Positions 2,605 through 8,222 of a stretch of 64,000 nt of DNA are shown here, in pieces. Under the pieces are notes generated by a model that ran no database searches, was not told the origin of the DNA, and saw only the letters and a program-made list of their open reading frames with translations. The stretch's first letter is position 1; each line of letters begins with the position of its first letter. The position numbers and the translations under genes are program-made. This stretch comes from Methanocorpusculum labreanum Z (GTDB lineage: Archaea; Halobacteriota; Methanomicrobia; Methanomicrobiales; Methanocorpusculaceae), in assembly GCF_000015765.1 (NCBI RefSeq), contig NC_008942.1:62001-126000 (forward strand), given 5' to 3'.

Positions 2605-2661
2605 CATAATCAAATATCAAAGCATATTCCGTTCATCGGAGTATGACCCTTGCAGAATGCT

Positions 2662-2681
2662 TATTCGACATATGTCGAATA
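2662..2681. promoter_or_regulatory. 20-bp perfect palindrome in the S-layer leader
   Basis: TATTCGACATATGTCGAATA is identical to its reverse complement over 20 bases. It lies between the likely TATA element and the ribosome binding site, with a second hairpin GCATGT-caa-ACATGC following at 2691-2705. It could be an operator for a dimeric regulator or a stem in the mRNA leader. Confidence 0.6.
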
Positions 2682-2746
2682 TCACGTATCGCATGTCAAA
2701 CATGCACAACCAAATTTACAATCCTAATTTAGGAGGAATTGATTAC

Positions 2747-4921
2747 ATGAAAACAACTAAAACAATTGCAGCAGTCCTCGCTGTATTCCTTGTTGCCGTT
2801 CTCTTTATGGGAGCGGGTGCAGCAGCGGATCCATCAACGGGTGATACTGTGTACGTATATCAGTACGGTGCAGTCAACGCAAGCTCTACCTATACCCTGT
2901 GGGTAGGCGGTCAGCCTGCTGGCCAGATCGCTTCAGGTCAGATAAATTCTGATGGTACAATTGACAGCGCTGATGTCACACCAGGTCTCTATTCTCTTAA
3001 CCCAAGTGCTCCTGTAGATCTCTTTACCGTCAAATTCCCTGCCCTTACTCTTGCTGTATACAAAGCAGGTACCGGCGACTCTATTGCAGATACCACTGTT
3101 ATAAAGGCTCAGGCTATTGACTTCTCGCTTACAGGTCTTAACGGACTTAATTACAGTGTTAAGTTTACCACACCAGCTGGTGGATCAACCTACGAGTTTG
3201 GTGAGAATTCTACTGGATCCCCACTTATCTGGAATGAGACCGCTACAAAGACCCTTACCGGTGTTTACCTCACAAACGTGACCTCTGGTACCTGGTCTGC
3301 CAAAGCTTCATTTGCAAAAGGCACCGTCGCCACGAAGTTAATCTCTACCACTCCGGATAAGTACGTTGATTCCAACAAGGTTTCCTTCACTGTTGGTTCT
3401 GAAGTAACAGATTCAATCTCCATCAACAAGGATTCAATTATCCGCGGAGCTTCCATCCTGGTTACCGTCACTGGTACTCCCAATGACTATGTTGATGTTT
3501 CCATCAACAATGCAGGTTTCACCCTCCTCGCAGGTCAAACTAAAGTTTGGGGAACCACATCAGGGAACTATCTGACTAATTTCACGGTACAACTCAGCTC
3601 AAGTGGAACTAAGACCGTCCAGCTCAACACTGACAGCTCTTCAGATGATACTACCTACACGTTCACCACTAACCAGACTCCTTCCCAGAAAGCAAAAGTT
3701 AGTGTTGCAGAAGGTACTGTGACTGCTGTTGCAGATCAGGATGCCTATTACATTGGTAACGACATCACCCTTTCCGGTACAAACACCGAAACCGATAATG
3801 TTTATCTCTTTATCAAAGGATCGAACGTTGCCCGGACCTACCTTGCTGTTTCAATCTCCGTTAAAGATGACGACACCTGGACCGCTACCTTCGACCCAAC
3901 AGATGTGTATGGAAAATCGTTAGATGCAGGTACCTACACCATCTATGCCTCCTCTAATATGGATGCAGGCAACGCCTTTAACTCAGATTACGCATATGCT
4001 ACCGTCTCTGTCTCTCTGAAACAGCCGTTCCTTTCAGCTACTGCTGAATCATCAACTGTTGCACAGGGCGATGATATCGTTATCGACGGAACTGCAGAAG
4101 CAACCAATGATCTTAGATACTACGTCTTTGGAACTAACAAATTCGTAAACGGTTCTATTTCGGTTGATGACGATGCTACCTTTACCGCTAAGATCTCCAC
4201 CGATGATCTTGCAGCTGGTCAGTACTTCGTAGTTATCCAGCACAAGATGTATGATGGATTCTTCAACATCCTGCCGATTGGCTCTCTCATCTATCAGGAC
4301 CCAACCGCAACACCTGTTATTGGTAACAACAACACGACGCTGTTATTCGATACTGCAGACCGCCAGAATGCAAATGCAGCAGAAGCACTCTGCCAGGCAC
4401 TTGACACTCAGAACATCGATGATATCTACGTGAAGCTTACGTTCATCGTTGCTCAGCCTACCCTGACTATGAATCCTGTTTCCGATGTAACCAAGGGCTC
4501 TGCTCTTAAAGTTTCCGGAACCACAAACCTCAAAGCAGGTACTGTAATTACTGTTGATGTTCTCTCAACCGCATTCACTGCAGTTGACAAGACCTCAGTC
4601 AACTCTGCATCCTTCATCACCCTGACAACCAAGGCTGTTGCAGGTGCTGATGGTGCAAACACCTGGGAAGTCACCTTTGACACAACCGGATTAAACGTTG
4701 ACTCCTACACAATCCAGGCAGTTACGGAAGATCTGTCCACCTCTACGATCATTAAGATCACCGAGGCAACTCCGACTGCAACCGCAACCGCAACTAAGAC
4801 TGCAACTGCAACCGCAACCGCAACTGCAACCGCAACCCCGACCACGACCCCCGGCTTTGGTGCATTCCTTGCACTCGCCGGCCTTGGCGCTGTCGCAGTT
4901 CTCGTCCTCCGCCGCGACTAA
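2747..4921 (+). CDS. S-layer-like surface glycoprotein with PGF-CTERM anchor
   Basis: The start at 2747 is preferred because AGGAGG at 2731-2736 sits at good spacing; the frame is open 30 codons further upstream but without such a site. The 724-residue product has a signal peptide (MKTTKTIAAVLAVFLVAVLF, then GAGAAA). A long Ser/Thr/Asp-rich beta-type ectodomain follows with several N-glycosylation sequons (for example NAS, NVT, NFT, NNT). Last come a Thr-rich linker and the C-terminal TTTPGFGAFLALAGLGAVAV plus LVLRRD. PGF-CTERM tails are processed by archaeosortase A and lipid-anchored. The N-terminal VYVYQYGAVNASSTYTLWVG resembles S-layer glycoproteins of Methanomicrobiales. A hairpin terminator follows. 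Confidence 0.88.
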   Translation: MKTTKTIAAVLAVFLVAVLFMGAGAAADPSTGDTVYVYQYGAVNASSTYTLWVGGQPAGQIASGQINSDGTIDSADVTPGLYSLNPSAPVDLFTVKFPALTLAVYKAGTGDSIADTTVIKAQAIDFSLTGLNGLNYSVKFTTPAGGSTYEFGENSTGSPLIWNETATKTLTGVYLTNVTSGTWSAKASFAKGTVATKLISTTPDKYVDSNKVSFTVGSEVTDSISINKDSIIRGASILVTVTGTPNDYVDVSINNAGFTLLAGQTKVWGTTSGNYLTNFTVQLSSSGTKTVQLNTDSSSDDTTYTFTTNQTPSQKAKVSVAEGTVTAVADQDAYYIGNDITLSGTNTETDNVYLFIKGSNVARTYLAVSISVKDDDTWTATFDPTDVYGKSLDAGTYTIYASSNMDAGNAFNSDYAYATVSVSLKQPFLSATAESSTVAQGDDIVIDGTAEATNDLRYYVFGTNKFVNGSISVDDDATFTAKISTDDLAAGQYFVVIQHKMYDGFFNILPIGSLIYQDPTATPVIGNNNTTLLFDTADRQNANAAEALCQALDTQNIDDIYVKLTFIVAQPTLTMNPVSDVTKGSALKVSGTTNLKAGTVITVDVLSTAFTAVDKTSVNSASFITLTTKAVAGADGANTWEVTFDTTGLNVDSYTIQAVTEDLSTSTIIKITEATPTATATATKTATATATATATATPTTTPGFGAFLALAGLGAVAVLVLRRD
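4765..4848 (+). repeat. Hexamer microsatellite coding the Thr/Ala linker
   Basis: Repeats of GCAACC/GCAACT encode the alternating Ala-Thr stretch just before the PGF anchor. The 6-base unit keeps the frame, so copy-number change would lengthen or shorten the glycosylatable wall-spanning linker without breaking the gene. Confidence 0.7.
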
Positions 4922-4980
4922 ATTCTTCTAAAGAATTTTAACGGCTAAGACAGATTTGTGTCCCACCCGGGGCACAAATC
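4921..4980 (+). terminator. S-layer gene terminator hairpins
   Basis: Two stem-loops follow the stop codon: AATTCTT-cta-AAGAATT at 4921-4937, and a stronger stem GATTTGTG paired with CACAAATC plus CCC/GGG (4953-4980). A T-run comes at 5000-5005. The second stem and T-run look like a transcription end. Confidence 0.65.
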
Positions 4981-4998
4981 CCCAAATTTTCCGAACTG

Positions 4999-5606
4999 CT
5001 TTTTTAATAGGACTTAGGCGGTGGGCTTTCTCATGCTTCCACACCCAGCCATATACTTCCCGAATTGTATCCCCACAATCTCACATATTTCCTGCCCAAA
5101 TCCTTCACTCCAGATGAACTACCTGAAAACGTATAGGGGCCTCAGCAAATAGGATATTCCCACCGCGGGCCGCTCCGCGCCGGAGTCGCGGCCCCGCACC
5201 CCATGATCAAGAAAAGGGATTGTTCATCTATTTTTTCCAGAAAAAAGACATGCAAGATAAGAAAAACCCGCACGCGGGTTTTTCCTCAGCATTTGTCCAA
5301 GAGCCAAAGGCTCTTGAGACGTCTCACGAGCTCTCAGCTCGTGGACTTTTCCAGAGAGGGTGCGATTCTGCGTAGGCGAAGCCCAAACAGGCAAAGCCTG
5401 TTTGAGGCGGCACGCAAATCTTCGATTTGCACGCATCAGCCGAAGCAGAGCACCCGAACGTAAGGAAAATGCGATTCGCGAGGATTCGCGGTTCTTTTAT
5501 CTCATACACTCACACTAATGCCGTACACTAAATCGAAGTCCATCTCATAAGGACTTCAGTTTTTTTTCGGTTGAGAGCACACCACGTAAGTCCTATTTAA
5601 AATAAG
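4999..5606. mobile_element. Putative ~608-bp element bounded by imperfect inverted repeats, no coding gene
   Basis: The left end 4999-5032 and the right end 5573-5606 are imperfect inverted repeats about 34 bases long with the shared core TAGGACTTA. The inside has no credible gene but contains a GC-rich stem near 5164-5198 and a run of perfect short-loop hairpins (5261-5440). A terminator-like GAAGTCC...GGACTTC hairpin followed by eight T's lies at 5535-5567. The form is that of a non-autonomous MITE-like element. No transposase or clear target duplication was recognised, so this is an inference from end symmetry. Confidence 0.45.
5261..5441. repeat. Cluster of perfect short-loop hairpins
   Basis: In order there are: AAAAACCCG-cacg-CGGGTTTTT (5262-5283); CAAGAGCC-aaa-GGCTCTTG; CACGAGCT-ctc-AGCTCGTG; AAACAGGC-aaa-GCCTGTTT; and GCAAATC-ttc-GATTTGC. 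All stems are perfect and four loops are three bases, but the stem sequences differ. The architecture matches the dispersed repeats at 2215, 7565 and 58895, although the linkers are different. The open frames across it are not credible genes. Confidence 0.75.
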
Positions 5607-5654
5607 TAAAACATCCGGAATCTCCTGTCATGATCTCTCAAAGCGCTTTATGGG

Positions 5655-5910
5655 TGATGTCATCCGTCATCAATCATCCGTCATCAATCATCCGTCACAT
5701 ATGATCCGCAAAAAGAGATGCAGCAAAAGATTTCGAGCCAGACTCTCTCACTGAGAGAATGAGCTGCCGAAACTCTCTTGTATTATTTATTTGTTTCTTA
5801 ATCTATATATAGTTGATTCAAAAAAAATTCGAAAACAAAAAACAGCGGTGTCACTATATTTTTTTCCAGCAGCATTGACGGATGACGGATGACGGATGAT
5901 GTCACATCAG
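5655..5910. repeat. Iteron-like direct repeats arranged as two inverted arms
   Basis: The left arm (5655-5697) has 14-base direct repeats CATCCGTCATCAAT in 2.7 copies. The right arm (5876-5910) has three TGACGGA units, which are the inverse of the same CATCCGTCA core, and both arms carry a TGATGT/ACATCA end. The ~178 bases between them are AT-rich with homopolymer A and T runs and a CTCTC-act-GAGAG hairpin. It looks like a binding array for a DNA-bending or initiator protein. No orc1/cdc6 gene is nearby. Confidence 0.6.
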
Positions 5911-7457: not shown

Positions 7458-7564
7458 TGTCTAAATATGTATTGGATTTATGGGGCGATAATATCTCTTA
7501 TTCTCTAATACTATACCCTCCAGAACCTTCAAATCAACGAAAAAAACCAGGGAGCCGCCCGCAT

Positions 7565-8222
7565 GCGCAAGTCATGTTCGATCGCTTTCGCTCCCTCCCA
7601 GACTTGCTTAGCTAAGGTCGGCGACTTCATAGCCAACCCGCACTCGCAAACATTCTGTTTGCTCGGCTGAGCACACTTCTTTGGGGTGTCCCGAACTCGC
7701 AAGTCATGGTCGGTCGCTATCGCTCTCTCCATGTCTTGCTTAGCTAAGGTCGGCGACTTCGTCACCAACCCGCACTCGCAAACATTCTGTTTGCTCGGCT
7801 GAGCACACTTCTTTGTGGTGTCCCGCACTCGCAAGTCATGTTCGGTCGCTTTGGCTCTCTCCACGCCTTGCTCCGCTAAGGTCGGCGACTTCGTCACCAA
7901 CCCGCACTCGCAAACATTCTGTTTGCTCGGCTGAGCACACTTCTTTGTGGTGTCCCGCACTCGCAAGTCATGTTCGGTCGCTTTGGCTCTCTCCATGCCT
8001 TGCTCCGCTAAGGTCGGCGACTTCGTCACCAACCCGCACTCGCAAACATTCTGTTTGCTCGGCTGAGCACACTTCTTTGTGGTGTCCCGCACTCGCAAGT
8101 CATGTTCGGTCGCTTTGGCTCTCTCCATGCCTTGCTCCGCTAAGGTCGGCGACTTCGTCACCAACCCGCACTCGCAAGTCTATCGACTTGCTCGACTGAG
8201 GGCACCCCTCCGGGGTCCCCCG
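7565..8222 (+). repeat. 132-bp tandem repeat array (hairpin-module family)
   Basis: The unit recurs exactly every 132 bases: its CACTCGCAA mark is at 7641, 7773, 7905, 8037 and 8169, with a partial unit before and a divergent end after. Each unit carries GCAAAC-attct-GTTTGC followed by TCGGCTGAG, an ACAC...GTGT stem, and TTGCTCCGCTAAGGTCGGC. The last unit ends in GCAAGTC-tatc-GACTTGC and a CCCCTCCGGGG stem. Because 132 is divisible by three, long frames stay open on both strands, but neither has a convincing start or protein character. The outer copies diverge more than the inner ones. Confidence 0.9.

Follow-up and report, generated by a model that had tools for sequence, protein, structure and literature searches.

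IS701 elements duplicate 4 bp at their target, and the small dispersed repeats (SDR) of cyanobacteria are very small units said to enter other repeats, in which they can be likened to the hairpin cassettes presented here. IS-derived MITEs (NCBIfam NF049921, IS701) are non-autonomous, share their ends with a transposase-bearing element, are flanked by a short duplication, and occur in many copies. Other described repeats are smaller or more composite. REP/REPIN sequences, associated with RAYT, are tiny hairpin DNAs showing compensatory stem changes, and the SDR are mentioned alongside them in the part of PMC3116915 used here. The pneumococcal BOX, RUP, and SPRITE repeats are modular, with optional inner modules (e.g., boxB) and repeats nested in one another; they include terminator-like members and are enriched away from upstream regions, according to sections of PMC3049150 and PMC10969869. 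In Anabaena variabilis, GTAG-15 REP dimers are inserted within larger palindromes, as described in a section of PMC3733652.

The locus analyzed here lies behind an S-layer-type gene of Methanocorpusculum labreanum Z, whose genome is a single contig of 1,804,962 bases; the window is the whole 64-kb stretch of this DNA. Very probably, the element found there is an IS701-type MITE that was inserted beside the S-layer terminator, would have been moved in trans, and carries smaller hairpin units nested within it. No description of such elements was found in the literature searched, as judged by titles and the opening of abstracts.

Boundaries and Structure of the Element

Family comparison places the element at 5008-5595 (588 bp, from TAGGACTTA to TAAGTCCTA), with TTTAA outside it on each side (Table 1). 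The initial annotation had located a mobile element at 4999-5606, correctly as to its presence, but with roughly 10 bp in excess at either end. The imperfect inverted ends that it reported are real: the 30-nt arms 5001-5030 and 5573-5602 are 83% complementary. The 5-bp duplication is exact; the corresponding 6-mers, TTTTAA and TTTAAA, agree at five of six positions.

Table 1. Features of the element and of its flanks (window positions).
Feature	Position	Strand	Remarks
Terminator hairpin behind S-layer gene	4953-4980	+	conserved in M. parvum and UBA424
Target-site duplication TTTAA, left copy	5003-5007		5-bp exact
Left terminal inverted repeat TAGGACTTAGGCGGTGGGCTTTC	5008-5030	+	family ends
Module A, 60-nt hairpin motif	5147-5206	+	covarying stem; also in two other MITE families
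Core terminator-like hairpin GAAAAACCCGC-AC-GCGGGTTTTTC	5261-5284	both	A-run, stem, T-run
Cassette D, 54 bp	5293-5346	+	hairpins CAAGAGCC-AAA-GGCTCTTG and CACGAGCT-CTC-AGCTCGTG
MITE core arm segment B	5347-5378	+	from copy alignment
Cassette E, 56 bp	5379-5434	+	hairpins AAACAGGC-AAA-GCCTGTTT and GCAAATC-TTC-GATTTGC
MITE core arm segment F	5435-5491	+	among the genome's most widespread pieces
Right terminal inverted repeat	5562-5595	-	read inwards, 31 of 34 nt match the transposase-side IS701-type end
Target-site duplication TTTAA, right copy	5596-5600		5-bp exact

As first described, the element holds many hairpins and no gene: no frame in the ORF listing is longer than 86 aa, those present lie over the hairpins, and none was recognized as a gene. 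The whole window contains 15 perfect hairpins with a stem of at least 8, for 2.5 expected across the same 64 kb under a first-order Markov null, and four of them are in the element. Folded as a single strand, the element reaches -213.5 kcal/mol, compared with -155.4 kcal/mol in shuffles (z -12.3; 0 of 20 shuffles as good). The internal terminator-like stem already pointed out corresponds to the core hairpin of Table 1, and the MITE core can be pictured as a long pair of fold-back arms, with such A-run/T-run terminator hairpins near the tip. Rfam searches returned no RNA family above the gathering threshold in the element and nothing close to threshold at 4900-5700, the only window matches being three tRNAs.

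Upstream, the S-layer-type gene (2657-4921, 754 aa) encodes a protein with a PGF-CTERM, matching NCBIfam S_layer_MEMAR at 433.5 bits, under the 600-bit cut-off. Its terminator hairpin is followed by a T6 run (5000-5005) that the element start adjoins, and the position directly after the S-layer terminator, as noted initially, is confirmed. Just downstream of the element, at 5654-5905, lies another inverted repeat (arms 5654-5683 and 5876-5905, 87% complementary), built from 14-bp TCATCCGTCATCAA tandem units and possibly constituting another small element.

Copies, Target Duplications, and Empty Sites

The element is one of many dispersed copies. A BLAST search against its own genome gave 142 matches, and the TAGGACTTACGCGGTG-type end motif (with up to two mismatches) was found there at 43 sites, versus one for the reversed control; most of these sites face inward in pairs separated by about 190-830 bp. 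BLAST matches to the element are present in 15 of 25 Methanocorpusculum genomes. Among the five relatives searched for its ends, these are abundant in G005 (M. parvum XII), G009 (UBA424), G010 (UBA425), and G020, and G023 has 15 sites versus one in the control.

Target duplications were analyzed in 49 elements with both ends, gathered in several species from the loci examined; N-containing elements were left out, and N runs in some G009 and G010 elements were left unchanged. An exact 6-bp duplication flanks 13 of the 49, for 1.15 expected from re-paired flanks (500 rounds, with a maximum of five for 6-mers), and an exact 5-mer flanks nine (1.56 expected), other lengths being at or near background. 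The consensus is TTNNAA (6 bp). Most elements, including the window copy with its 5 bp, have no exact 6-bp duplication.

Orthologous sites were compared at 129 loci of relatives. At site 550016 of the M. labreanum genome, UBA425 has no copy: its flanks are continuous across a single TAAAA-like target, with diverged sequence near the junction. At the S-layer locus, the last stretch up to window position 5005 is 86-96% identical in M. parvum and UBA424, in which it is followed by other sequence and, about 180 bp past the break, by another member of the MITE family, different from the window copy. Since the right flank of the window element is not alignable with this locus in either relative, the site is unoccupied there without being a clean empty site. 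M. labreanum and M. parvum have the copy at 1488469 in common, at the same site; some insertions are, therefore, older than the split of these two.

Family ends or elements also occur on MAG contigs assigned to Methanosarcinaceae, Bacilli, or Bacteroidales bins (L170, L181, L226, and L227), which are probably mis-binned. Outside the genus, the 17-mer TAGGACTTACGCGGTGT was matched in Achromobacter insuavis (L188, L207, and L231), where it lies behind CGGGCGGCCTTT in what is probably an unrelated repeat, and on a Paceibacterota contig, where the match seems unrelated as well.

The IS701-Type Partner

Family-level transposase searches missed the autonomous partner, which was found only from contig ends in draft genomes. 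Two G020 contig ends, 99.4% identical over 180 nt, carry an open frame finishing in ...MSTGRRAVYMKMNELDKELRFF (the transposase C-terminus), followed by the family end GGAAAGAACACCGCGTAAGTCCTA. Two further G020 contigs start with the other family end, followed by a frame of which 18 residues match the start of an 81-aa protein piece from G010. This piece led to L262:1422-2524 in G004, a 1103-bp element with both family ends and a transposase frameshifted over three frames. NCBIfam transpos_IS701_2 matches the G010 piece at 49.2 bits and the G004 pieces at 212.3 and 40.6 bits, all under the 250-bit cut-off, and the IS701-type pieces also match Pfam DDE_5. The transposase was, thus, seen in G004 as a frameshifted copy, the only one with both ends, in G010 as a piece, and in G020 at contig ends, and in no other form.

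The same ends are, thus, associated with a transposase in a relative, as anticipated for a non-autonomous element. The partner was not detected in M. labreanum, in which the IS701 N-terminal piece gave no match at 1e-5 and PF13586 gave none; the window copy is, therefore, probably immobile now. Eight ORFs of at least 150 aa located between inward-facing ends were inspected by eye, and none was judged to be a transposase; one encodes the GNAT acetyltransferase of L215. The shared ends, among them the right end of the window copy (Table 1), give good support to the link of the MITE to an IS701-type partner. An IS701-type transposase recognizing TAGGACTTACGCGGTGT ends would have moved the MITE in trans, and insertion of the MITE beside the S-layer terminator would have created the TTTAA duplication. 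Dispersed copies, transposase-bearing ends in a relative, the 6-bp duplication, the empty site of a sister copy, and the absence from the S-layer site in two relatives together support the identification of the element as a MITE, in agreement with its initial description as a non-autonomous mobile element.

Another candidate, the IS1634 element of L162 (PF01609, 25 genus genomes; NCBIfam IS1634), adjoins a family end. It is not the partner, because it has its own ends, CCTGACTTTGACAGTTG, and is nested inside an IS701-type copy; this IS1634-family insertion is at L162:1024-2728 of UBA425 (approximate ends). Also in UBA425, in the element L215:367-1475, a GNAT acetyltransferase gene is found between IS701-type ends (34/34 and 32/34 nt) flanked by a perfect TTTAAA duplication, and is a passenger in the transposase's place.

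Gene Context

Of the 22 end pairs of M. labreanum, 21 were classified by gene context (898030, which overlaps 898354, was excluded): 15 lie between convergent genes, four between tandem genes, and two between divergent genes. In the window, 12 of 72 neighboring ORF pairs are convergent (1681 of 7191 intergenic bases), a baseline that is restricted to these 72 pairs and to a crude ORF caller. This bias would be expected from a preference for T-run/A-run targets at terminators, from purifying selection, or from the two combined. Perfect terminator-like hairpins number 43 in the own-genome loci examined; they are usually paired, about 72 bp apart, with stems that are mostly CCGGC/GCCGG or CCCGC/GCGGG. 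The core hairpins may terminate transcription. Copies would be kept mostly between convergent genes, where they may at most add some transcription termination.

Nested Cassettes and Module A

Smaller units are nested in the MITE, namely module A and the two cassettes, D and E. In 14 aligned arm sequences, D and E behave as all-or-none blocks, apart from a truncated case (L057). D occupies a single core site throughout, between CAGCAT and TTTTCC, while E is found between GTAGGCG and ATMAGCC and in two other contexts, i.e., at three sites among the copies. Empty junctions are flush and have no long direct repeats. A search for 35-75 bp inserts, blind to the definitions of D and E, was applied to 62 elements, excluding those containing N. 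It identified E (in 10 elements, missing from 27), D (in seven, missing from 26), a third type of 51 bp (in five, missing from 13), and eight further clusters of one element each. A GCAAAN...NTTTGC hairpin is present in seven of these 11 clusters, and the three large ones each have two hairpins.

Of the orthologous MITEs shared by M. labreanum and M. parvum, the M. parvum copy lacks a unit of about 51 bp, and the two copies also differ by a second block, of about 58 bp; units, thus, continue to change once a MITE is in place. The initial annotation was right that the element carries hairpin modules, except that these are distinct units nested in the MITE and do not belong to its fixed parts. 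At individual sites, the difference may be due to insertion of D or E or to their precise deletion.

The cassette hairpin word GCAAATC-NNN-GATTTGC occurs at 49 sites in the M. labreanum genome (control: 0). It was counted 70 times in G005, 26 in G009, 80 in G010, 42 in G020, and 36 in G023, these five relatives being those picked earlier for their MITE richness, and zero times in the near-complete congeners G004, G007, G008, G012, G013, and G024. Sixteen stretches around such words, mostly away from MITE clusters, contain single and tandem cassettes. Genome-wide, the same GCAAATC stem bears the loops AAA/TTT, TCT/AGA, and TTC/GAA. A RAYT/IS200 origin of the cassette hairpins was rejected, because Y1_Tnp (PF01797) was found in 0 of 25 genus genomes at E 1e-6, while the control set was positive in five of 14. 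Elsewhere in the window, a 132-bp tandem array (7558-8177; 4.7 copies, 95% matches) contains the cassette-like hairpin words GCAAACATTCTGTTTGC and TCGGCTGAG.

Module A is also free-standing in the genus. Among 40 copies, six are in the element family, two between IS1634-like ends, two with both kinds, and seven between GATTTCTAACAACCT ends, the other 23 having no recognized end pair. Module A occurs as inverted pairs in MITEs with the IS1634 end motif (L060 and L206). In other congeners, L104, L106, L119, and L122 form a third MITE-like family, with GATTTCTAACAACCT ends around module A, which is in inverted pairs in three of the four. In the M. labreanum genome, three copies (L240, L243, and L248) are split at the identical base by a 52-56 bp cassette; one insertion followed by the spread of A could also explain this shared point.

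Cassette E and module A both show compensatory stem changes in alignments of copies chosen by pattern after a BLAST search. The alignment of E has 17 distinct rows and is 98.8% paired; both sides are changed in 27 cells, versus 7.1 in shuffles (0 of 500 as high), affecting six of 19 pairs; for further pair types, all 500 shuffles were as high. In the 39 aligned copies of module A, 94.5% of the cells are paired, and changes on both sides affect 36 cells, versus 10.0 in shuffles (0 of 500). The number of pairs so changed, four of 13, was equaled in 84 of 500 shuffles, and that of further pair types in 361 of 500. On otherwise perfect stems, E loops occur as reverse-complement pairs (AAA/TTT and TTC/GAA), which suggests hairpin inversion or template switching in DNA, alongside or in place of selection on RNA.

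Alternative Explanations

A fixed regulatory or sRNA locus at the 3' end of the S-layer gene would account for the strong fold, the terminator-like stem, and the place behind the S-layer terminator. Nevertheless, the segment has dozens of dispersed copies, paired ends, and target duplications, neither M. parvum nor UBA424 has it right behind the terminator, and no Rfam family exceeds its threshold at the locus. As a complete account, such a non-mobile locus is already refuted, and it is highly improbable overall.

It is tentatively proposed that the 44-56 bp hairpin cassettes, mostly with two hairpins, are a separate class of tiny mobile DNA that a single group of Methanocorpusculum genomes would harbor. 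They would enter other repeats (MITE arms and module A) precisely, with no evident target duplication, using an enzyme that is neither of the IS701 type, like the MITE transposase, nor of the IS200/RAYT type, probably as folded single-stranded DNA. A comparably doubtful reading is that D and E have no mobility of their own, being ancestral MITE parts lost by precise deletion, or being copied from one MITE to another by homologous recombination or gene conversion. The single core site of D is in keeping with this, as are the three module A copies bearing a cassette at one site, if a single insertion was followed by the spread of A. It is less easily reconciled with the three sequence contexts of E, the flush empty junctions devoid of long direct repeats, the same layout in different cassette types, and the many sites of the hairpin word outside MITE clusters. 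Regarding the compensatory stem changes, the chances are about even that they arose at the DNA level, by template switching or in-place loop inversion, rather than by selection for a functional RNA. The reverse-complement loop pairs on perfect stems, in E and genome-wide, argue for a DNA process, whereas module A, with its fixed single-stranded flanks, mostly one loop, and covarying stem, looks more like a folded molecule.

Comparison with Known Systems

With this family, a methanogen genus gains MITEs having an IS701-type link, a TTNNAA target, and a strong bias towards convergent gene ends. The dozens of junctions with and without a cassette, some of them between orthologous copies of two species, constitute material for studying the movement of hairpin DNA. 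If the cassettes truly transpose by themselves, they would be, to our knowledge, among the smallest mobile units, and we know of no enzyme for them. The nested cassettes are the part that a specialist would not expect. They differ in sequence from the SDR, whose hosts are cyanobacteria, and, in contrast to the REP/REPIN system (PMC3116915), no Y1_Tnp/RAYT gene was found for them in 25 genus genomes. The M. labreanum family differs from IS-derived MITEs by its 5-6 bp TTNNAA target and its nested cassettes. This nesting is not wholly new in kind, since the pneumococcal repeats and the Anabaena REP dimers nest similarly (PMC3733652, in the section cited). The likeness to the pneumococcal repeats is one of architecture only, with no sequence link claimed and with an archaeal host here; and while boxB is a tandem module in the sections of PMC3049150 and PMC10969869 considered, D and E are single units at flush sites, several of them in the case of E.
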